Below are positions 1 through 10,758 of a DNA stretch of 64,000 nt, in pieces. A program made the position numbers and the translations under genes. Location of the stretch: positions 124,001-188,000 of the forward strand of contig NZ_JAAMOW010000005.1 of NCBI RefSeq assembly GCF_011067135.1, in the 5' to 3' direction. A model generated the notes under the pieces. The model saw only the letters and a program-made list of their open reading frames with translations. It was not told the DNA's origin and searched no databases. Numbering within the stretch: the stretch's first letter is position 1; the number at the start of each line of letters is the position of its first letter. This stretch comes from Solimonas terrae (GTDB lineage: Bacteria; Pseudomonadota; Gammaproteobacteria; Nevskiales; Nevskiaceae).

Positions 1-1420
1 TGTGCCCCCTGCGCGGCAGGCAGCAGCTTCTGCAGGGCGCCGAGAATTTCGACGCGCTTGATCGAGTCGATGCCGAGATCGGCCTCGAGGTCGGCATCCA
101 TGGCCAGCATTTCCGGCGGATAGCCGGTGCGCTCGGCGACGATGCCGATCAGGGTTGCCGCGAAATCGACCGGTGCAGCGACGACGACGGCCGCGCTCGG
201 CGCTGATGCGGCGACGCTGGTCGTGGGCGTTGCGGCCGGCGCCAGCTTCTGCAGCTCGGCGACGATCGCGCCCAGCGACTTGGCTTTGGTGAAGCGCTCC
301 ATGCCGGCCTGCATCTGCGCGGCGAGCTCGCCGGGCAGGGCCTTCTGGAACGCACCGAGGATTTCGACGCGCTTGATCGAGTCGATGCCGAGATCGGCTT
401 CAAGGTCGGCCTCGAACCCGAGCATCTCGACCGGATAACCGGTGCGCTCGGCGACCAGCGTCGTCAGCGTGCCGGCGTAATCGATCGCGACGGCGGCAAC
501 CGCCACGGCTGCGGCCGGCGCTGCGGTGGCAGCCGGCGCGGCCGCCGGTGCGATGTGCCGCAATTCGGCAAGGATCGCGCTCAGCGACCTGGCCTTGGTG
601 AAACGTTCCATGCCGGCCTGCATCTGCGCAGCGGCAGTGGCCGGCATTGCCTTCTGCACCGCGCCGAGGATTTCGACCCGTTTGATCGAATCGATGCCGA
701 GATCGGCTTCGAGATCGGCGTCGAGGCCGAGCATTTCCGGCGGATAGCCGGTGCGCTCGGCGACGATGCCGGTCAGCAGCGCCTGATGATCGACGGCCGG
801 GGCGCTGCCCGCGAGCGCGACGGCGCTCGCAGCCGGCGCGGCGGCCGGCATCGCGGCCTGGAAGCCGGACGATTGCGCCAGGATCGCGCTCAGCGACTTG
901 GCCTTGGTGAAGCGCTCCATGCCGGCCTGCATCTGCGCCGCGGCATCCGCCGGCAGGGCTTTCTGGAACGCGCCGAGGATTTCGACCCGCTTGATCGAAT
1001 CGATCCCCAGGTCGGCTTCCAGATCCGCTTCGAGACCGAGCATGTCACTCGGATAGCCGGTGCGCTCGGCGACGATGCCGATCAGCAGCGCCTGCAGGTC
1101 GACGGCGGGTGCGGCGGCCGGCGCCATCGCCGGCATCGCGGCCGCTGCCGGCGCCGATCCCAGCGGCAGGGTGCGGGTCTGCGCGAGGATCGCGTTCAGC
1201 GACTTGGCCTTGGTGAATCCCTCCATCTGCGCCTGCATCTGCGTCGCGGCAGCAGCCGGCAGGGCTTTCTGGAAGGCGCCGAGAATTTCGACGCGCTTGA
1301 TCGAATCGATCCCCAGATCCGCTTCGAGATCGGCGTCGAGGCCGAGCATCTCGCCGGGATAGCCGGTGCGTTCGGCGACGATGCCGAGCAGCGTCTGCTG
1401 CGCATCGAACGCCGGCACGG
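1..1420 (-). repeat. Tandem ACP-coding repeats, period about 306-315 bp, five units
   Basis: Five similar DNA units encode the acyl carrier domains. The codon for the modified serine recurs at 1302-1304, 996-998, 687-689, 378-380 and 63-65, giving spacings of 306, 309, 309 and 315 bp. The ACP cores are nearly identical at DNA level, while the Ala/Pro-rich linkers vary. This is a coding repeat within the megasynthase, not a mobile or CRISPR repeat. The array may continue to the left of the window. Confidence 0.9.
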
Positions 1421-4400
1421 CCGCGACGGCGACCGCAGCCACCGGCGTCGGCGTCGGCGCGGGCGCCGCGACAACCGCTGCCGGCGGCGTGAATGCGTGT
1501 ACCGCCGGCATGGCCGGCATTGACGCGGATGCGGTACTGCCGCCGCCGAGGTACTGCTGGAGCACGCGTTCCTGCAGCGAGAGGAACTGCCGCATCGTCT
1601 GCTGATAGGCGACCAGCGCATCGCCGGCCATCGCCGGCAGGGCGGGCATCGCAGCGGGCATGGCCGGCGACGGTATCACCTGGCCGGCTGCGGCAGGCGC
1701 CGCTGCGGCGACCCCGGAAACCGGTGTGCGTGCGGAGAGGGCGGCGCGCGCGCGCTCGGCGCTGGCCGCCGTCAGCGGCGGCAGGCTGCCGCTGCGCAGC
1801 AGCGGGTCGGCAATCGGCCGTGCGCAGCCACCGCTGAGCAGCCACATGTGCTTGGGGACGACCAGCGGCTTGGACAGCTCATCGAACTGGGCGTCATCGA
1901 GCAGCGCCAGATCGCGTCGCGCAAACAGGGCCGACGGCTGCCACGCGGCACCGGCGACGAACAGTTCCGCCAGGCCCATCAGCAGGCCGCGCATGCCACC
2001 GCCGTTGGCGTCCAGCGAAATCGCCGTCGCCTCCTTGCCGGCCAGGGTCTGGCGCGCCATGTTCGAGACGATGCCCTTGGGGCCGAGTTCGAGGAACAGG
2101 CGGCTGCCGGACGCATGCATCGCCTCGATTTCGGCGACGAATTCGACGGGGCTCAGCATGTGCTGATCGAGCAGCGAACGGATGGCCGTGGCCGTGGCGG
2201 GATAGCGCTGCGCGGTCTGGTTGGAGTAGACGGCGCAACGGCCCTCGCCGAACTGTGCGGCCTTGATCGCGGTCGTCAGCGCGGCCTTGGCCGGCGCAAC
2301 CAGCTGCGTATGGAAGGCGCCGGACACCGGCAGCATGACGGTGCGCATGCCGGCCGCCGACAGCTTCTGTGCAGCCTGTTCGATCTGCGCCTTCGGCCCG
2401 GACACCACGCATTGTTCGGGCGCGTTGTGATTGGCGATGCTGATGCCGGCAAAGCCGGCGATCTGCGCGGCGACGACCTCGCGACGCGCCTGCACGGCGA
2501 CCATCGCGCCGGCTTCGCTGGTCTGCGAGGCGTCCGCCATCGCCGCGCCGCGCACGGCGGACAGCTGCATGAAGGTTTCGGCATCGATCACGCCGGCGGC
2601 GAGCAGGGCGGTGTATTCGCCATAGCTGTGCCCGGCGGTCGCCACCGGTTCGAGTCCGAGCCGCCGCGCGAACTGCAGGTAGCCCATCGACAGCGCACCG
2701 ATCGCCGGCTGGGCGACGCGGGTATTGGTCAGGGCATGGGTCTGCGCGGTTTCGCTTGCGTCGTCGAAGGCGGCAGCGGGCATCATCAGGGTCGACAGGC
2801 GCCGCGGCAGGGCATCGCCGAGCTGACGGTCGGCGAATTCCAGGGCCTCGCGCACTTCGTCGATGAACAGGCCGACTTCACGACCCATGTTCAGGTGCTG
2901 TGCGCCCTGGCCGGGGAACAGGAAGGCAATCGCCGGCGCCGTTGCCGGCACGGCAGTCGACAGGCGGACATGCGGCGGCAAGGGCTTGTCACCACCGGCC
3001 TGCAGATGCGCCAGCGCGGCATCGAGATCGCGCGCCAGGGCCTTGGTATCGCTGCAGACGATCGCCAGCGCCACCGGCTTGCCGACCTGGGCTTCAGCCT
3101 TGCGCGCGAGCGCGCAGGCCAGCTCCGCGAGGGGCACACGATGGCCGTCGCCGAGCTTGCCGCGCAGTGCCTGCAACTCGCGGCCGAGCGCCGCCTTGTC
3201 GGCGGCGCGGAACAGGCACAACTCGTGTGGCCAGCGCTGCGCACCGGACGCGCCATTGCTGGCAGCGTGCTCTTCGAGCACGACATGGAAATTGGTGCCG
3301 CCAAAGCCGAACGCCGAAGCGCCGGCGCGGCGCGGATACTGCGGGTGCGCCAGCCACGGACGCGGTTCCTTCAACAGATATGCGGCGGACTTCGGGTCGG
3401 CGAGCGTGTCGATCGGCTTTTCGACGCCGGCGTGCGCCGGCAGCACGCGGTGATAGAGCGCGAGCGCGACTTTGGCCATGCCGGCAACACCGGCCGCGGC
3501 CTTGGTGTGGCCGAGCAGCGTCTTGACCGAGCCGAGCGCAACGCTGGCGGGTTCGGCGTTCTCGGCGGCCAGTGCACGCGTGATGGTCTGCGCCTCGGCA
3601 CGATCGCCGACCGCGGTACCGGTGCCATGCGCTTCGACCAGGCCCAGCGTCGCCGGCGAGAAGCCGGCCTTTCCGTAGGCGCGGTTCAGTGCGCGCACCT
3701 GGCCTTCGCTGCGCGGCGCGGTGAGGCCCAGGGCCTTGCCGTCACTGGAACCGGCGGCGGACTTGATCACCGCATAGATGCGATCACCGTCGCGTTCGGC
3801 ATCGGCCAGCCGTTTGAGCACGACGATCGCCGTGCCCTCGGAAATCGCGATACCGTCGGCGCCCTGATCGAAGGTCTTGGGCTTGCCGCTCGGCGACAAT
3901 GCCTGGGTCTTGGCGAATGTCGTGAAGCCGTAGATCGACTGCGTGGTGTCGAAGCCGCCGGCCAGCACCATCGAACTGCGCCCGGACTCCAGCTCGTTGA
4001 CGGCCATGCTGATCGCGGCCAGCGACGAGGCACAGGCGGCATCGATCGTCAGATTGATGCCGCCGAAATCGAGACGGTTGGAAATGCGTCCGGCGGCGAC
4101 ATTGGGCAGCACGCCGGCGAACGATTCCTCGGTCCACTCCGGCAGGCGCTCCCAGACTTCCTCGTTGATGTTTTCGACGAAGCGCGGCAGTTCGGCGCGC
4201 AGGCCGTATTGCAGGCCCAGTTCGCCGGCGCCGCCGCTGGCGCCGAGGATCACGGAGGTCGTCTCGCGATCGAATCCGCCCTTGGCGTAGCCGGCATCGT
4301 CGAGGGCGCGGCTCGCGCCCTCCAGCGCCAGCAACTGCATCGGGTCGATCGATTTCATCGACTTCGGCGGAATGCCGAAGCGCGTCGGATCGAAATGAAT

Positions 4401-6644
4401 CTCTTCGAGGAAGCCGCCCCAGCGCGAATACACCTTGTCGCGCACCTTGCGGTTCTGGTCGAAGAACAGCTTCCAGTCCCAGCGCGATTCCGGCACTTCG
4501 CGGATCACGCTGACCTTGTTGAGCAGGTTGTTCCAGTAGTCCTCGGCGGTATCCGCCTTCGGCAGCACCACGCCGATGCCGACGATCGCCACATCGCTCG
4601 GCGTTTCCGCGCGCGGTTCGACCGTGGCCGGGGCGAGCATCTGCTGCGCGCCGTGGCAGACATCGCCGTGCAGCGTTTCGATCGAGACGCGCGCGTCGCG
4701 CAGGGTCGCGACCTGGCCGATCATGTACATGCCGTCGCTGAGCTGGGTCCTGGCGTCGATCTCGACGATCTTGCCTTCGCCGTCGCGGTTGACGCCCTTC
4801 GACGCGACACGCAGGCGGCCCAGATTGAGATCTTCCAGCTCGTCGCGGATTTCCTCGGCGCTGCGGCCGGCGCGTATCAACTCGCGGCGCTTGTCGAAGA
4901 ACTCGGCGGCAAAGCCGGTGTCGGCACAGCGCGTCGCGTGGCCGGGACCGGTTTCCAGATTCTTGGTGCGTGCGCAGGCGATGGCCTGCTCCTGAAAGCC
5001 ATTGACGATCGCGCCCGTCGACACGATCTCTTCGGTGAACAGATAGGCCGTACCCATCAGCGCGCCGACCTTCATGCCGCGCGCGGCCAGCGGTGCCGTC
5101 ATCGCCGCGACCATCGCACCGGAGCGGGCGTCATGGACGCCGCCGGCGAACAGCACGTGGATGTCCTTTTCGTCGCCCGGCTTCACGTGCTCGAGCAGCA
5201 CGTCGATCATTTCTTCCCACAGCGTGAAGCTCGCCAGTGGCCCGATGTGGCCGCCGCACTCCCGGCCTTCGAACACGAAGCGGCGCGCACCCTGTTCGAG
5301 ATACATCTTCAGCAGCGCCGGCGCCGGCGCGTGGATATAGGTCTTGATGCCGCGCTTCTCGAATTCCGCGGCCTGGTCCGGCCGGCCGCCGGCGATCAGC
5401 GCGAACGGCGGCTGGCACTTCCAGATCTCGGCGCACTGTTCCTCTCGCAGCGAATGCGGGATGAAACCGAGCATGCCGACGCCCCAGGGGCGGTCGCCGA
5501 TGCGGTCGCGCGTCTGTTCGAGCATCTCGCGGACCTGCGGCCCGCGCATCAGCGCCAGCGCCAGGAACGGCAGGGCGCCCCCCTTGGCGACTTCGACCGC
5601 GAAATCCGGCGAGTCGGACACACGCGTCATCGGCCCCTGCGCAAGCGGGAAGCGCGTGCCGTGCGAAGCGGCGAGAGCGCCGTTCTCGTCGATGAAGCGC
5701 AGGCTCGCGGCCTGTTCGATCTGCTGGCGGCTGGCGCGGCGGATCGCCTGCACAAGCCTGGCGACGCTGCCGTAGCGCTTGCGGAACGCCGCGGCCAGAC
5801 CGATGCCCTGACCGAGCGGGAACAGGCGCTCGCTGCCGCCCGCCCAGCTCATCATGCCGGCCACTTTGGCCTGCCAGTCGTCCAGCGCCAGCAGGCCGCC
5901 TTCGGCCTGACGGTTGTCTTCTTCGGCGGTCTTCAGCGCCGCGCTGCCCGGCCGGTTGTAGACCCGGCAGCTGTGGTCCAGCAGTTCGCCGAACAGGCGT
6001 GTTTCGGAACCGTTGAGGCGTGCGAATTCGTTCTGCAGCGCGAGCGGCAGCGGCGACTCGGCGAGCAGCAGCATCTGATCGTCGAGCATCACGCCGGCGG
6101 CGCCGGCGACGCGGCAGGCGGCGGTCGAATGCACGCCGACGCCGCCCTGCACGACGATCGGCAGCTCGGTCCGCCCGCTGAGTTTCTGCAGCAGGATATA
6201 GCTGGTGTATTCGCCGACCCAGCCACCGGACTCGTGGCCACGGGCGACGAGTCCGTCGCAGCTGGCAGCTGCCGTCAGCTGTGCCGGATCGGTGATCTCG
6301 GCCCAGGCGCTGTCGCCGGCGCGCAGGCCGACATCCTTGCGCAGCTTCTTGTAGTTGTCGGTGCCGGCGAGCACGACCGTCAGTTCTCGTGCACCCGCTG
6401 CGGCCAGCAGTTGCTTGCCGAGCTTGGTGCTGCCCGGTGTGACGCGCAGGCCCAATCGCGCATCGGCATTCGTGCACAGCTGGGCAAAGTTGCGAGCGGC
6501 CAGTTCGGCGTCGGCAACGAATTCGAGGTCCAGCAGGCCGAGCCCGCCGCTGCGCGCCAGCGCGGCAACGAGGCCGGCATGCGGGAGGTCGGCGGCCTGC
6601 AGGCCGATGACATCGAACGACGGCGAGGAATGACTGATTTTCAT
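1..6644 (-). CDS. PUFA-synthase-like megasynthase (NPD-NPD-KS-AT-ACPx5), 3' end outside window
   Basis: The frame runs from ATG at 6644 off the left edge (2214 whole codons). It holds two nitropropane-dioxygenase/PfaD-like regions (about residues 1-230, motif GHESGGWVGE; and 330-560, motif FEGRECGGHIG), a ketosynthase (about 681-1110; DAACASS with Cys871, His1006 in EAHGTGT, His1046 in GHTKAA), an acyltransferase (about 1240-1560; GHSYGE with Ser1340, His1445 in GAFHT) and five acyl carrier domains with phosphopantetheine serines at 1781, 1883, 1986, 2089 and 2194, all in LGIDSIK. That ACP motif and tandem ACPs after KS-AT are hallmarks of PfaA-type polyunsaturated or secondary-lipid synthases. 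Classical PfaD is a separate protein; here PfaD-like domains are N-terminal to the KS. More ACPs or ketoreductase/dehydratase domains may lie beyond the edge. The chemical product cannot be inferred. The Ala/Pro-rich linkers are typical of ACP arrays. Confidence 0.9.
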   Translation of the reverse strand, partial: MKISHSSPSFDVIGLQAADLPHAGLVAALARSGGLGLLDLEFVADAELAARNFAQLCTNADARLGLRVTPGSTKLGKQLLAAAGARELTVVLAGTDNYKKLRKDVGLRAGDSAWAEITDPAQLTAAASCDGLVARGHESGGWVGEYTSYILLQKLSGRTELPIVVQGGVGVHSTAACRVAGAAGVMLDDQMLLLAESPLPLALQNEFARLNGSETRLFGELLDHSCRVYNRPGSAALKTAEEDNRQAEGGLLALDDWQAKVAGMMSWAGGSERLFPLGQGIGLAAAFRKRYGSVARLVQAIRRASRQQIEQAASLRFIDENGALAASHGTRFPLAQGPMTRVSDSPDFAVEVAKGGALPFLALALMRGPQVREMLEQTRDRIGDRPWGVGMLGFIPHSLREEQCAEIWKCQPPFALIAGGRPDQAAEFEKRGIKTYIHAPAPALLKMYLEQGARRFVFEGRECGGHIGPLASFTLWEEMIDVLLEHVKPGDEKDIHVLFAGGVHDARSGAMVAAMTAPLAARGMKVGALMGTAYLFTEEIVSTGAIVNGFQEQAIACARTKNLETGPGHATRCADTGFAAEFFDKRRELIRAGRSAEEIRDELEDLNLGRLRVASKGVNRDGEGKIVEIDARTQLSDGMYMIGQVATLRDARVSIETLHGDVCHGAQQMLAPATVEPRAETPSDVAIVGIGVVLPKADTAEDYWNNLLNKVSVIREVPESRWDWKLFFDQNRKVRDKVYSRWGGFLEEIHFDPTRFGIPPKSMKSIDPMQLLALEGASRALDDAGYAKGGFDRETTSVILGASGGAGELGLQYGLRAELPRFVENINEEVWERLPEWTEESFAGVLPNVAAGRISNRLDFGGINLTIDAACASSLAAISMAVNELESGRSSMVLAGGFDTTQSIYGFTTFAKTQALSPSGKPKTFDQGADGIAISEGTAIVVLKRLADAERDGDRIYAVIKSAAGSSDGKALGLTAPRSEGQVRALNRAYGKAGFSPATLGLVEAHGTGTAVGDRAEAQTITRALAAENAEPASVALGSVKTLLGHTKAAAGVAGMAKVALALYHRVLPAHAGVEKPIDTLADPKSAAYLLKEPRPWLAHPQYPRRAGASAFGFGGTNFHVVLEEHAASNGASGAQRWPHELCLFRAADKAALGRELQALRGKLGDGHRVPLAELACALARKAEAQVGKPVALAIVCSDTKALARDLDAALAHLQAGGDKPLPPHVRLSTAVPATAPAIAFLFPGQGAQHLNMGREVGLFIDEVREALEFADRQLGDALPRRLSTLMMPAAAFDDASETAQTHALTNTRVAQPAIGALSMGYLQFARRLGLEPVATAGHSYGEYTALLAAGVIDAETFMQLSAVRGAAMADASQTSEAGAMVAVQARREVVAAQIAGFAGISIANHNAPEQCVVSGPKAQIEQAAQKLSAAGMRTVMLPVSGAFHTQLVAPAKAALTTAIKAAQFGEGRCAVYSNQTAQRYPATATAIRSLLDQHMLSPVEFVAEIEAMHASGSRLFLELGPKGIVSNMARQTLAGKEATAISLDANGGGMRGLLMGLAELFVAGAAWQPSALFARRDLALLDDAQFDELSKPLVVPKHMWLLSGGCARPIADPLLRSGSLPPLTAASAERARAALSARTPVSGVAAAAPAAAGQVIPSPAMPAAMPALPAMAGDALVAYQQTMRQFLSLQERVLQQYLGGGSTASASMPAMPAVHAFTPPAAVVAAPAPTPTPVAAVAVAAVPAFDAQQTLLGIVAERTGYPGEMLGLDADLEADLGIDSIKRVEILGAFQKALPAAAATQMQAQMEGFTKAKSLNAILAQTRTLPLGSAPAAAAMPAMAPAAAPAVDLQALLIGIVAERTGYPSDMLGLEADLEADLGIDSIKRVEILGAFQKALPADAAAQMQAGMERFTKAKSLSAILAQSSGFQAAMPAAAPAASAVALAGSAPAVDHQALLTGIVAERTGYPPEMLGLDADLEADLGIDSIKRVEILGAVQKAMPATAAAQMQAGMERFTKARSLSAILAELRHIAPAAAPAATAAPAAAVAVAAVAIDYAGTLTTLVAERTGYPVEMLGFEADLEADLGIDSIKRVEILGAFQKALPGELAAQMQAGMERFTKAKSLGAIVAELQKLAPAATPTTSVAASAPSAAVVVAAPVDFAATLIGIVAERTGYPPEMLAMDADLEADLGIDSIKRVEILGALQKLLPAAQGA

Positions 6645-6685: not shown

Positions 6686-7501
6686 CTATTTCTTCTTGCC
6701 TTCGAGGAACGGCACTTCGAGCACCTTGTCGTGGACGATCGGACCGTGCCCGAAATAGCCGTCCTCGCCGAAGCACTCGCCGTGATCGGCGGTGATGACG
6801 AAATGCGTGCCGACCGGCGCTTTCGACACGAGGGCATCGAGTACGCCGTCGACGTATTCGACGGTCTTGATCTGCTGCAGGTGCAGGTCCTTCATCTGCT
6901 TGTCGTCGAAGAACTGATCTTCGGTTTCCTGCCCCATCGAGTCGTCCATGCGCTTGAACACGCCATGTACGCCCGAGATATGCGGCAGCGAGCCCGGATC
7001 GAGCATGTACGGGTAGTGGGTTTCGCCGAGATTGAGGAAGTGGAAGCTCGGCTCGTCTTCGTCGAACTCGATCTCCTTGACCATGCCGGCGAAATCATTG
7101 TGGTTCGCCATCAGCTTGTAATCGTCGAAATGACGATTCAGATGGCTGAGCGGATTGAGCACCGGCATCGACACGCGGGCGACCGTGCGATAGCCCTGGT
7201 CCTGCAGGACCTTGGGCAGAGACAGCTGCGGAATGAAGCTCTTGAACGACAGGCCGTCGACGCCGAGCCGGTCGACCCACTTCGTGAAATCCTTCTTGTA
7301 GACCTCGGAGGCGAACACGTTCCGAGGGCTTTCATGCGGAATCATGCCCATCAGATAGGTGTAGTGCGACGGACTGGTCCAGGACGCGTACGCATAGCGA
7401 CGCGCTCCCTCACCGATACGGTCCATGGTCGGGGTCTTGGCGGCGCGATAGCTGTCGAAACGACAGCTGTCCATGATGATGAAGACGAGATCGTTGCTCA
7501 T
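6686..7501 (-). CDS. Alkaline-phosphatase-superfamily (sulfatase-like) hydrolase, Thr nucleophile position
   Basis: A 271-residue protein opening with FIIMDSCRFDSY, the first metal-binding strand of the sulfatase/alkaline-phosphatase fold, and ending with TADHGECFGEDGYFGHG, the second metal site. The segment that carries the formylglycine motif C-x-P-S-R in true sulfatases reads T-S-P-S-H (Thr42), so it is probably not a formylglycine sulfatase and may be a phosphatase, phosphodiesterase or phospho-group transferase. No signal peptide or membrane segment is visible, so it is likely cytoplasmic. I chose ATG 7501 because it starts exactly at the conserved first strand; an upstream in-frame extension to 7690 lacks family similarity. 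It lies 41 bp upstream of the megasynthase on the same strand, so the two are probably co-transcribed. Confidence 0.8.
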   Translation of the reverse strand: MSNDLVFIIMDSCRFDSYRAAKTPTMDRIGEGARRYAYASWTSPSHYTYLMGMIPHESPRNVFASEVYKKDFTKWVDRLGVDGLSFKSFIPQLSLPKVLQDQGYRTVARVSMPVLNPLSHLNRHFDDYKLMANHNDFAGMVKEIEFDEDEPSFHFLNLGETHYPYMLDPGSLPHISGVHGVFKRMDDSMGQETEDQFFDDKQMKDLHLQQIKTVEYVDGVLDALVSKAPVGTHFVITADHGECFGEDGYFGHGPIVHDKVLEVPFLEGKKK

Positions 7502-8005
7502 TGATTTGGGCAGTGGTGCATCGTTGTCTGTGTGGTTGGGGGATCGTCGGGCGACAGACATTCGCCCGACGGGAAAAAGCTTCAGAAGAAGGGGGTGCAG
7601 CGTCGCTCGTGCCGATACGATGGCATTGCCGACCGGCTGCGCACGGCAGCCGGTGATCGAGGTTGCCGTCTGCCGGGCAAACGGTTCCACGCGCGACGCT
7701 TGACCAAAACCCCTCTCCCTTTCTGCGCTGTCCGGAGGACAGTAAAACCCGGAGGACTGACGGCCTCAGCCGGCGCCTTCCTGTCGTTATTCGGTACCGC
7801 AACAAATTCAATGACTACTAGGTATCACATGCACCGCGGTCCGGCTGTAAGAGAATTCCGCTGCGTTGCACATTTTCCGGACTTTGCTGCAGATGCTGAC
7901 GCTAAGTGGCTGGTTCGCGTTAAAAATATGTCAATGAGTGACAGAATTACGTCGCCGTCCGGGCTCCGGATTGGCCGTGGGGACAGTGGTAAACGGGCCG
8001 GGCGA
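7502..8005. other. 504-bp intergenic region between apaH and the synthase operon
   Basis: No credible gene is visible. The part from about 7790 to 7955 is clearly more AT-rich than its surroundings, which fits a promoter region for the minus-strand hydrolase-synthase operon. A minus-strand TTGACA occurs at 7929-7934, but I see no good -10 box at the right distance, so no start site is called. No T-tailed hairpin is evident after apaH. Confidence 0.4.
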
Positions 8006-8854
8006 TCAGGCGGGCTGCCTCGGGATCGATCGCGTCGCCGTCGTCGCCGCGACGCTGAACAGACGCCGGTCATCCAGCCGCAGTGCGGTCAGATGCCCAC
8101 CCCAGAGATAGCCGGTGTCGAGCCCGTAGACCCGGTTTGCCGGCCAGTGCACGCGACCCAGCGCCGACCAGTGTCCGAAGATCACTGTACTGCGCGCCGA
8201 GCGCCGGTCCGGCGCGGCAAACCACGGCAGGAGCCCGGCCGGCGCGGTATCGATCGGGCCCTTGTAGCGGTAGTCGAAATGACCGTCGATGTCGCAGTAG
8301 CGTGCGCGCGTGAGGATGTTGACGATGCAGCGCATGCGCTCGGCGCCGCGCAGCCGGTCCGACCAGCGATTCGGCTCGTTGCCGTACATCCGGCTCATGA
8401 AGCGGCTGAAGCGACGCGGCTCGCGCAATTCGTGCTGCACTTCGGCAGCCAGCTGCAGCGTCTGTCGTTGCGTCCATTGCGGTGCCAGGCCGGCGTGGAT
8501 CAGCAGCACGGAATGCCGTGGATCGCGATAGGCGAGTCTCTGCCGGCGTAGCCAGTGCAACAGGCGATCGGCGTCCGGCGCCTGCAGCACGGCGTCGAGA
8601 TGATCGTCGGGGTCGCCGCGCTCGCCGCGCTCGGCGAGCGACAGCAGATGCAGGTCGTGATTGCCGAGCACGCTGACGACGGCCGGGCCGAGCCCGGACA
8701 CGAAGCGCAGGGTCTCCAGAGAATCGGGGCCACGCGCAACCAGGTCGCCGCAGAACAGGAGGCGGTCGCGGCCCTTGCGGAATCCGAGCTTGCTCAGCAA
8801 GGCGAGCAGGCCCTCGAAGCAACCTTGCAGATCGCCGATCACATAGCTGGCCAT
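8006..8854 (-). CDS. apaH: Bis(5'-nucleosyl)-tetraphosphatase, symmetrical
   Basis: 282 residues of the metallophosphoesterase family. It hydrolyses Ap4A to two ADP in the cytoplasm (and, from established work, can decap Np4-capped RNA). Metal-site motifs are in order: GDLQGC near the N-terminus, CGDLVARGP, LGNHDLH, then IHAGL and FGHW. Length matches ApaH of other gammaproteobacteria. In many relatives apaH follows rsmA-apaG; here it stands alone, about 16 kb from rsmA, beside the divergent phosphoethanolamine-transferase-like gene. Confidence 0.95.
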   Translation of the reverse strand: MASYVIGDLQGCFEGLLALLSKLGFRKGRDRLLFCGDLVARGPDSLETLRFVSGLGPAVVSVLGNHDLHLLSLAERGERGDPDDHLDAVLQAPDADRLLHWLRRQRLAYRDPRHSVLLIHAGLAPQWTQRQTLQLAAEVQHELREPRRFSRFMSRMYGNEPNRWSDRLRGAERMRCIVNILTRARYCDIDGHFDYRYKGPIDTAPAGLLPWFAAPDRRSARSTVIFGHWSALGRVHWPANRVYGLDTGYLWGGHLTALRLDDRRLFSVAATTATRSIPRQPA

Positions 8855-8955
8855 ACCCGGAGATTCCCTCGTCCCTTGTCCGTTCGGTGGTTTGCCGAGT
8901 CTAAAGTGAAGTGAGACGGGCGGTCGCCGGTGACGACCGGCTATGCTCCGGATCC

Positions 8956-10758
8956 ATGCGAGGCTTGTCGACGTTCCGGAACAAGAAGGCAGTCACCGTT
9001 GCCGGCTGGCTGCTGTGCCTGCTGTTGCTGATCGTGGAATTGCTGCCCAATGCATATCTTTTTCGGGCAGCTGGTCTGTCTCTCGCCGAAACGCACAATC
9101 CCCTGAGCGCCTTGCTGCTGGCGCTGGCGCGCGCTTCACCGTTTCCTGCGGTGCTGCTGGCCGAGCTGCTTGTACTGGCGCTGCTCGGGCGGCCCTGGCT
9201 CTGGCTGCTGCTGAATCTTCCCTTCCTGATCTGGTTGCCGGGTGAGCTTTCCTATCTCTGGCGCTACGGCACGCCGACCTCGGCGCACGTTTTCGCAATC
9301 ATCGGCGAGACCAATCGCGATGAAGTCACGGGCATGCTCGGTAGCGTCGTCTGGTTGTGCCTGCTCGGTCTTGCTTTGTGGACACTGGCACTGCTGGCGG
9401 TCCTGTACTTCTTTTTCAGGCTCGCACCATGGCGACACCGCACGCGGCTGTGGACCGCGCTGGCGCTCGGTTCGAGCCTGGCGATGACCCTGCTGGTTTA
9501 CAAGCGCGCCAGTGACGCCGCTGCCGCCGCGACGCAAGAATCGGCAGGCAGCTGTACCGGCGAATTCTGTGCGTACACGGCTTTGTCGCCGTTCTTCTAT
9601 GTCTTTGTCGATAGCTATCCGTTCGGGTTGCCGGTCCGGCTCTACGATTACGTCACGCAGCGGCGCATGCTGGCGCACTACGCAGCGGTGCTGAAGGATG
9701 CCAGCCTTGGCCTCGGTCGCGATCAGGCGCTCGCCGCACAAGCCGAGACCTATGTCGTCGTCATCGGCGAGTCGGCGCGAGCGGATCACTGGAGCTTGTT
9801 CGGATATGGCCGCCCGACCACGCCGCTGCTCGACCATCGAGATCATCTGCTGGCGTTCGGGGACGCGGTTTCGGTAACGCCAGCGACGCGCACTGCCGTG
9901 CCGATCCTGCTGAGCGGCGCGAGCGTCGAAGATGTCGACGCGTTCCGCTTCAAGCCGTCCTGGATCAACGCATTCAAGGCGGCAGGTTTCACGGTGTCCT
10001 GGCTGTCAGCACAACTGCCTGTCGGCCTGCACGACACCACGGTCGGCATCTACGCGCAGCTCGCCGATGACATCGAATTCCTCAATCCCGGCAGTTACGA
10101 GAGTCGTGGCAGCTATGACGATGTGCTGCTTGCCGCGCTCGATCGCCGTCTCCGTGCGCCGCAGCCGAAGAAGCTCATCATCCTGCATATGCTTGGCAGC
10201 CATGCTCCGTATCAGCATCGGTATCCGCCGGCCTACGAGGTATTCAAGCCGGCGCCCGGCACGCACGACGATGTCGGCATCAATGACAGGGACGAAGGCG
10301 ACAGGATCGACAATGCCTACGACAACAGCCTGCGTTACAGCGATCACGTACTCGATTCGGTAATCACGCGCCTGAACAGGACGGCCGCCGTGAGCGCGCT
10401 CTGGTACGTCTCCGATCACGGACAGACATTGCCGATGGATGGCTGCAAGAACAGTGGTAACGGTTTCTTTTCCGCTTACAACTTTCATGTGCCCCTGTTG
10501 TTCTGGCATTCCACCCGATACGACAAGCTGTTCGGAGACAGACTGCGCGCGGCAGCGACCAACGTGCAGCGACCGGTCTACATGGCGGACTTTGCATTCA
10601 GCCTGCTCGACTCCTTCGGCTTCGAGCTGCCGGCCGAACAATTGCAGCGGAGTTTCATGCGAGCCGACTACCGCGCGGGACCGCGTATCGTCACCATTGA
10701 CGGCAGCGAGCGCATGGACTACGACCGCGACTTCAAAGCCTCCATGTGCCGGAACTGA
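8956..10758 (+). CDS. Phosphoethanolamine-transferase-like inner-membrane enzyme (EptA/CptA family)
   Basis: About 600 residues: four to five hydrophobic helices in the first 200 residues, then a periplasmic sulfatase-fold domain. Motifs include VVVIGESARADHWSLFGYGR (first metal strand), TPATRTAVPILLSG containing the nucleophile threonine, LHMLGSHAPY and VSDHGQ. These proteins transfer phosphoethanolamine from phosphatidylethanolamine to lipid A, LPS core or other glycans; the exact acceptor cannot be told. The start is uncertain: ATG 8956 gives a short basic leader before the first helix, while an in-frame GTG at 8911 would add 15 residues with no homology. The gene is divergent from apaH and not obviously in an operon. 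Confidence 0.85.
   Translation: MRGLSTFRNKKAVTVAGWLLCLLLLIVELLPNAYLFRAAGLSLAETHNPLSALLLALARASPFPAVLLAELLVLALLGRPWLWLLLNLPFLIWLPGELSYLWRYGTPTSAHVFAIIGETNRDEVTGMLGSVVWLCLLGLALWTLALLAVLYFFFRLAPWRHRTRLWTALALGSSLAMTLLVYKRASDAAAAATQESAGSCTGEFCAYTALSPFFYVFVDSYPFGLPVRLYDYVTQRRMLAHYAAVLKDASLGLGRDQALAAQAETYVVVIGESARADHWSLFGYGRPTTPLLDHRDHLLAFGDAVSVTPATRTAVPILLSGASVEDVDAFRFKPSWINAFKAAGFTVSWLSAQLPVGLHDTTVGIYAQLADDIEFLNPGSYESRGSYDDVLLAALDRRLRAPQPKKLIILHMLGSHAPYQHRYPPAYEVFKPAPGTHDDVGINDRDEGDRIDNAYDNSLRYSDHVLDSVITRLNRTAAVSALWYVSDHGQTLPMDGCKNSGNGFFSAYNFHVPLLFWHSTRYDKLFGDRLRAAATNVQRPVYMADFAFSLLDSFGFELPAEQLQRSFMRADYRAGPRIVTIDGSERMDYDRDFKASMCRN

Follow-up and report, generated by a model that had tools for sequence, protein, structure and literature searches.

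A probable Type O/ArsA-lineage lipid synthase of Solimonas terrae with an apparently inactive first reductase domain

The locus described here raises the question of what kind of synthase is encoded by a gene in which two reductase-type domains precede a ketosynthase (KS) in one chain, and what the two domains do there. The window (the whole stretch of DNA analyzed, 64,000 nucleotides) is C16:124001-188000 of the 4.42-Mb genome of Solimonas terrae. Gene 1 lies on the minus strand, with an ATG at window position 6644 and an unbroken frame to C16:121381 that encodes 3087 aa; about 72% of the gene is inside the window, and the remaining 2.6 kb lies beyond the left edge. The leftward extension that the first-pass annotation had called for was run and closes the gene with KR and DH domains. 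The domain order, from Pfam and NCBIfam models and from FabK matches for the two enoyl reductase (ER) domains, is ER1-ER2-KS-AT-5xACP-KR-DH, the single chain carrying KS, AT, PP-binding (five stretches), KR, and two DH models. The motifs GHESGGWVGE and FEGRECGGHIG, which had been reported in front of the KS, were found at aa 136-145 and 458-468, and the "five or more" LGIDSIK carriers reported in one chain are exactly five (aa 1777, 1879, 1982, 2085, and 2190), all within the window. Motif inspection found that signature residues are kept in the KS, AT, KR, DH, ER2, and five ACP domains, where we take the KS, AT, KR, DH, and PPTase motifs to have their usual meaning. The features of gene 1 are as follows.

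1..6644, continuing to C16:121381, minus strand: gene 1, N-terminal part of the 3087-aa synthase (open reading frame and domain models)
5699..6644, minus strand: ER1, FabK-like domain of TIM-barrel type, apparently degenerate (FabK model and PDB matches, alignments)
4632..5698, minus strand: ER2, FabK-like enoyl reductase domain with motifs intact (H466, QGPM, GT; models and alignments)
3255..4607, minus strand: KSa (aa 680-1130), Cys-His-His present (domain model and motif inspection)
1935..2930, minus strand: AT (aa ~1239-1570), GHSYG (domain model and motif inspection)
1296..1316, minus strand: ACP1, LGIDSIK attachment motif (motif inspection)
990..1010, minus strand: ACP2, LGIDSIK (motif inspection)
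681..701, minus strand: ACP3, LGIDSIK (motif inspection)
372..392, minus strand: ACP4, LGIDSIK (motif inspection)
57..77, minus strand: ACP5, LGIDSIK (motif inspection)
aa ~2493-2720, left of the window, minus strand: KR of gene 1 (domain models)
aa ~2797-3066, left of the window, minus strand: DH of gene 1 (domain models)

In one relative, the gene 1 frame (L080:2537-10774) has several hundred additional residues before ER1; these could reflect an added domain or an artefact of the chosen start site.

The next gene, gene 2 (C16:116424-121325), encodes a 1633-aa protein with the Pfam order KS-AT-DH-PPTase. Its KS and AT keep their signature residues, the KS having ACATT and both His residues. 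Because this is the only KS stretch that Pfam identified in gene 2 and its Cys is retained, we conclude that gene 2 has no CLF. The activity of the gene 2 DH is unsure, since HTLG was found without a clean HxxxGxxxxP. The PPTase contains WAAKEA. A motif search found no P0 motif, which is the motif of Types A-L, in this PPTase, and RGKP (P1a) and VSIAH (P1b') were read by eye. PPTases of Types M-T have no P0 and are described by P1a x(G/D)xP and P1b' hShxH (PMC3098273). The PPTase motifs therefore support a Type O assignment in that they are compatible with it, but being common to other M-T types they are not O-specific.

The distribution of this architecture was evaluated in two ways. When the 671-aa front of gene 1 was used as a protein query, matches at E<=1e-100 were found in 54/85 genomes of the order (paralogues counted), and 48 of the 58 genomes of the family contain the synthase or its paralogue; in no fewer than three of the latter (G029, G056, and G058), the match is only a paralogue-like one of 43-46%. 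Across the phylum sample, 10/398 genomes matched, the window genome included; the latter has a single match, and the paralogue was not found there. A scan of public genomes with two ER2 peptide patterns gave 516 stretches encoding a relative, and the best 80 were fetched. ER1, ER2, and KS are in a single frame in 78 of these best 80 of 516 loci, the exceptions being L146, which begins within the gene at a contig end, and L152, which ends before the KS at a contig end; ER1 is present in 79 of the 80, and the remaining locus is cut inside the gene by the contig end. By NCBI rank, the best 80 represent 12 phyla (46 Pseudomonadota, 8 Cyanobacteriota, 7 Planctomycetota, and others, with 2 unplaced). 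Because the ER1-ER2-KS frame is shared so widely among the best 80 of 516, the order is not rare, and the earlier description of it as "unusual" is not supported. The same counts bear on whether an assembly or frameshift error joined two adjacent genes, as the first-pass annotation had allowed: the junction recurs in the relatives, including chromosome-length contigs of Dinoroseobacter shibae and Gloeobacter, and we therefore exclude such an error, the chance of which we regard as negligible.

Several observations were made in the course of these searches. A paralogous clade of tandem-ER synthases, ~44% identical, occurs in relatives (L068, L069, L070, L071, L080, and L196), where it is flanked by ABC transporter genes and by ACP, glycosyltransferase, alpha/beta hydrolase, and condensation-like genes; this gene content suggests an exported glycolipid. 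Tandem-ER synthases were also seen on contigs labelled anammox (Candidatus Brocadia and Scalindua; L131 and L157); to our knowledge, the pathway to the ladderane lipids of anammox bacteria is still open. The Streptomyces plasmids NZ_CP108492.1 and NZ_CP108735.1 encode proteins ~46% identical to the ER1-ER2 region over 81% of its length.

The class of the synthase was evaluated by KS phylogeny. The KS rows were hand-picked for spread and include 37 gene-1 KS; three long-branched rows (L193, L194, and the second-gene KS of L183) were dropped by hand before the final 73-row tree, and four intended PfaA loci (L185, L186, L191, and L192) had no KS long enough for it. It was found that the window, Type O, paralogous clade, and ArsA sequences fall together (48 rows, 100/98), and that another clade (13 rows, 100/99) consists of PfaA KS, so called through linkage to a PfaD-model match, and heterocyst-type KS, a term that we, and not the annotation, apply to the Fischerella and Westiellopsis rows. 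The window KSa grouped with D. shibae and Gloeobacter at 95/89 (35 rows) and with Gloeobacter at 100/99 (14 rows). In an earlier tree, which lacked ArsA and still contained the three long-branched rows, the tandem-ER clade had lower support (84/50 with the paralogues and 93/71 without them), and the "other Pfa" KS were not one clade (2 changes).

Type O was named in 2011 for synthases of D. shibae, Gloeobacter violaceus, and Parvularcula, with product unknown (PMC3098273). D. shibae has eight PfaA-model matches; of the five listed, four lie in the tandem-ER cluster and the remaining one is a frame of 318 aa, so that the tandem-ER cluster must be its Type O cluster. The Gloeobacter assignment follows from placement in the KS clade. 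In Gloeobacter, L181 and L182, two further PfaA-like genes with KS of the PfaA/heterocyst-type clade were observed besides the tandem-ER cluster. The Type O loci of D. shibae and Gloeobacter share with the window not only the KS clade but also the ER1-ER2-KS-AT-ACPn-KR front, a second gene of KS-AT-DH-PPTase order, PPTase motifs of the M-T group as in gene 2, and a next gene homologous by BLAST to the PF01663 phosphodiesterase of the window's locus. The D. shibae gene differs in having no DH match after the KR, whereas gene 1 has five ACP motifs and a DH.

The second group that is close to the window synthase is ArsA. An ER1-ER2-KS-AT-ACP-KR protein was found on Beijerinckia indica pBIND02, on a Methylosinus plasmid, and at four loci of one Pseudomonadaceae genus (Azotobacter salinestris included), and these six proteins adjoin type III PKS and DH-PPTase genes (two of each by Pfam). 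Because B. indica and Azotobacter vinelandii are Type P (PMC3098273), we read the six loci as the ars operon. All six ArsA-type proteins have the ER-ER-KS-AT-ACP-KR order, to which gene 1 adds a DH, and they resemble the window locus in their dead ER1 and intact ER2, in their KS clade, and in having PPTase and DH on a second protein. In contrast to the five ACPs and the DH of gene 1, their ACP motifs number one or two and no DH was matched; the ArsD-type proteins lack the KS and AT that gene 2 has; and type III PKS genes belong to the ars operon, whereas none was matched in the window genome (no PF02797 match) or, by Pfam, among the scanned neighbours of the cluster.

The suggestion that this is a secondary-lipid type of synthase, distinct from the five-gene Pfa systems, is thus borne out by the KS clade with Type O and ArsA. 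By the criterion that the first-pass annotation itself had set, its reading is largely refuted, because that clade unites the window KS with catalogued Type O and characterised ArsA proteins of the same ER-ER-KS-AT-ACP-KR order. We take the locus to encode, probably, an iterative type I synthase of the Type O/ArsA (Type P) secondary-lipid lineage, a class that is already known.

The two domains in front of the KS had been called PfaD-like. The part of this claim that stands is that there are two fused reductase-type domains, but models and tree identify them as FabK-like. Each region searched separately matched the FabK model TIGR03151 (ER1, E=1e-9, 38.1 bits; ER2, E=1.1e-18, 67.5 bits), below the curated cut-off of 453 bits, and PDB FabK chains gave E values of 1e-14 with the ER1 part and of 6e-10 with ER2 by itself. 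FabK is thus the closest model and supplies the closest solved chains for both. With the PfaD model, ER2 scored 13.7 bits against a cut-off of 449, and ER1 was unlisted at E<=10. In a tree that took in six of the nine PfaD loci and 10 of the 14 FabK/NMO loci chosen for it, ER1, ER2, and PfaD formed separate clades (100/100 each); this tree warns of long-branch meeting, and therefore we use only the separateness of the clades and not their deep order. Because of the separate clades, the "PfaD-like" label should be dropped, and we reject membership in PfaD on these together with the model scores. By sequence, ER1 and ER2 are homologous to FabK and lie outside the FabK equivalog. FabK (enoyl-ACP reductase II) is a stand-alone enzyme, whereas ER1 and ER2 are fused in tandem and ER1 appears inactive. 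Weak NMO-model matches on contigs C1 and C20 were set aside; judging by eye from the N-termini of adjacent frames, they fall on barrels resembling hisA/hisF and on a frame antisense to its surroundings next to a purine gene.

The active sites of the two domains were compared in three sets: alignment A2 (the window and 73 of the 80 fetched loci, leaving out L087, L103, L114, L115, L118, L119, and L146), alignment A1 (from a protein search with no pattern, window included, sharing some genomes with A2), and the six ArsA-type sequences. The correspondence between ER1 and ER2 was taken from FabK alignments and the spacing to the GG motif, as a global ER1-ER2 self-alignment is not sensible; motif patterns, which miss variants, were not the basis for ER counts. 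We presume that the glycine of the G-T/S stretch binds the FMN phosphate. In the window protein, ER2 has all three motifs (catalytic His, QGxM, and G-T/S), and ER1 has W142 at the catalytic His position and has lost QGxM and G-T/S, a change that had escaped the first-pass annotation. The catalytic His is present in ER2 in 74/74 sequences of A2, 23/23 of A1, and 6/6 of the ArsA type, and in no ER1 of any set; the A2 count for ER2 is biased because one search pattern contained the ER2 His, a bias from which the A1 and ArsA rows are free. The motif I Met is in ER2 and missing from ER1 across all three sets. The G of G-T/S is missing from ER1 in 73/74 (A2), 22/23 (A1), and 6/6 (ArsA type), the position being D or E in A2 and A1 and A, S, or C in the six ArsA-type sequences; one ER1 per alignment (A1 and A2) retains the FMN glycine. 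The catalytic His belongs to motif III, and the motif I Met is reported to contact FMN (PMC13311796). A reading with two working reductases was considered and rejected.

The ER1 sequence is less conserved than that of ER2, with a mean pairwise identity of 36% vs 59% and a lower value in 2701/2701 (non-independent) pairs, and its His position varies freely, with 11 residue types among 74 sequences. Nevertheless, some polar ER1 residues are near-invariant (Q153 in 74/74, E138 and R227 in 73/74, and E196 and E214 in 71/74). Omega values from three pairs were 0.195, 0.420, and 0.425 for ER1 vs 0.191, 0.237, and 0.216 for ER2, a fourth pair, L052/L053, having been left out for a wrong-strand frame. 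ER1 thus looks degenerate and inactive, yet is kept in frame under purifying selection. FabK and PfaD enzymes are dimers (PMC13311796), and for this reason ER1 is probably a structural domain, the built-in inactive partner of ER2. The thraustochytrid PUFA synthase likewise has two homologous flavin ER domains, ERb and ERc, which form a heterodimer in one synthase, but these are on two proteins, are PfaD-like, and have the catalytic His in both (PMC13311796). We found no mention of a double ER or a dead ER1 in the literature covered, which is that other than the figures and supplements of the 2011 paper and the ArsA paper.

The genes around the cluster bear on the fate of the chain. Downstream in the window genome, Pfam identified a PF01663 AP-superfamily phosphodiesterase, a hexapeptide acyltransferase, an alpha/beta hydrolase, a CoA transferase III protein, and a PHB-esterase-like protein, and a small ACP-like protein is just under the Pfam cut-off. 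By BLAST at >=45 bits, a phosphodiesterase homologue follows the two genes in 14/17 order-level loci (L052-L067 and L081), in 5/5 of L171-L175, and in 12/18 further loci (L197-L216 minus L206 and L207, where gene 1 was not found), the matches of two loci being weak (23-30% identity). Upstream of gene 1 are the following.

6686..7690, minus strand: AP-superfamily hydrolase (Sulfatase model; weak STM4013-family match below cut-off), which adjoins gene 1 in 14/17 order-level loci by BLAST
8006..8854, minus strand: calcineurin-like phosphoesterase, which adjoins the cluster in some close relatives (5/17 order-level loci)

Near the cluster on the opposite strand, window 8911-10758 has a CptA/EptA-type phosphoethanolamine transferase match below cut-offs. 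PF13469 sulfotransferase genes occur near Type O-like synthases at L074, L085-L088, L097, L108, L109, L111, L117, and L171 (Pfam on three of these loci and BLAST matches on the others), and such neighbours in several lineages hint at a sulfated product. A 492-aa protein (L009:2954-4432) has no match in Pfam or NCBIfam, and its BLAST homologues lie close to Type O-like clusters of several lineages.

Two other readings of the product were weighed against a secondary lipid. If pfaD had simply been fused to pfaA, the locus would encode a Pfa-type PUFA synthase, and gene 1 does pass the PfaA model TIGR02813 with 1419 bits against a cut-off of 1010; a PfaD-PfaA fusion, with reductase and PfaA homologue in one gene and a second gene without a KS-CLF pair, has been described in Ottowia thiooxydans (PMC13291983). 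The Ottowia fusion, whose likeness to gene 1 is taken from its published description, is part of a PKS-NRPS hybrid cluster, and the passages covered make no mention of a double ER (PMC13291983). In Pfa systems (Types A/B), the KS is in the PfaA clade, the ER is of the PfaD family, and PfaC has a KS-CLF pair, whereas the window KSa is outside the PfaA/heterocyst-type clade, ER1 and ER2 fail the PfaD model and lie outside its clade, gene 2 lacks a CLF, its PPTase lacks P0, and the window genome has no PfaD-model match at E<=1e-3. A PUFA product is accordingly unlikely. We give equally little credence to the reading that the chain enters an assembly line for polyketides or peptides, so that the locus would yield a secreted natural product. 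The paralogous clade does sit with ABC transporter, glycosyltransferase, and condensation-like genes, and PKS-NRPS clusters that contain PUFA-like synthases have been described (PMC13291983), but no PKS/NRPS module was present among those neighbours of the cluster that were scanned with Pfam, and the one match to the front in the window genome is not the paralogue.

A further alternative concerns ER1 itself, which might not be a structural partner but a second working domain of altered activity, such as a flavin-free isomerase, a substrate- or ACP-binding domain, or a nucleotide site. The near-invariant polar residues and the retention of ER1 in nearly all of the best 80 of 516 loci, the one exception being truncated, would be consistent with such a role; against it are the free variation at the His position and the uniformly lower similarity relative to ER2. 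We regard a working ER1 as unlikely, and a pseudo-reductase forming the permanent dimer partner of ER2 is most likely.

Our overall explanation, which we consider probable, is that a Type O/ArsA-lineage synthase with ER1 as a pseudo-reductase makes a very long, mostly saturated chain. The two KS domains (KSa and KSb) would lengthen a malonyl-derived chain carried by the tandem ACPs, which the fused PPTase would activate, and KR, DH, and the FMN enzyme ER2 would reduce each step; it is from this stepwise reduction that we infer a mostly saturated, very long acyl chain of C20 or more. With less assurance, the chain may then go by way of the discrete ACP and the tailoring enzymes of the operon (AP-superfamily phosphodiesterase, alpha/beta hydrolase, hexapeptide acyltransferase, and CoA transferase) into an envelope lipid, and would not be handed to a type III PKS, unlike in Azotobacter. 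The fatty acyl part of the ArsA product is C22-C26, e.g., behenic acid (PMC3098273), its chains being given as C23-C25 elsewhere (PMC4824345). Chain length and saturation are not simply transferable from ArsA, because the KS and AT of gene 2 and the five ACPs and DH of gene 1 differ from it; by analogy, a very long, probably saturated chain is our best guess for the window synthase, and a synthase with two KS and two DH could also leave the chain partly unsaturated. The earlier statement that the product is not predictable was therefore too pessimistic for the chain and is fair for the final lipid.

A wider proposal, which we offer tentatively as possible rather than probable, is that a family in at least 12 phyla, ArsA included, has a conserved pseudo-reductase that pairs obligately and asymmetrically with the one active reductase of the same chain, the pair fixing assembly or determining which chains are reduced, and that the Type O product would be a very-long-chain envelope lipid with a head group set by the recurring AP-superfamily and hydrolase genes, joined in some lineages by genes for sulfotransferases.

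Of the 58 family genomes searched, 48 have the synthase or its paralogue, and the architecture occurs in 12 phyla, in a class that was described in 2011 without an assigned product. The tie to ArsA provides a first testable guess at the chain, which could be tried in culture with D. shibae and with Pseudomonas relatives. The apparently dead ER1, seen in the ArsA-type proteins as well, raises the question of how these synthases use a single reductase.
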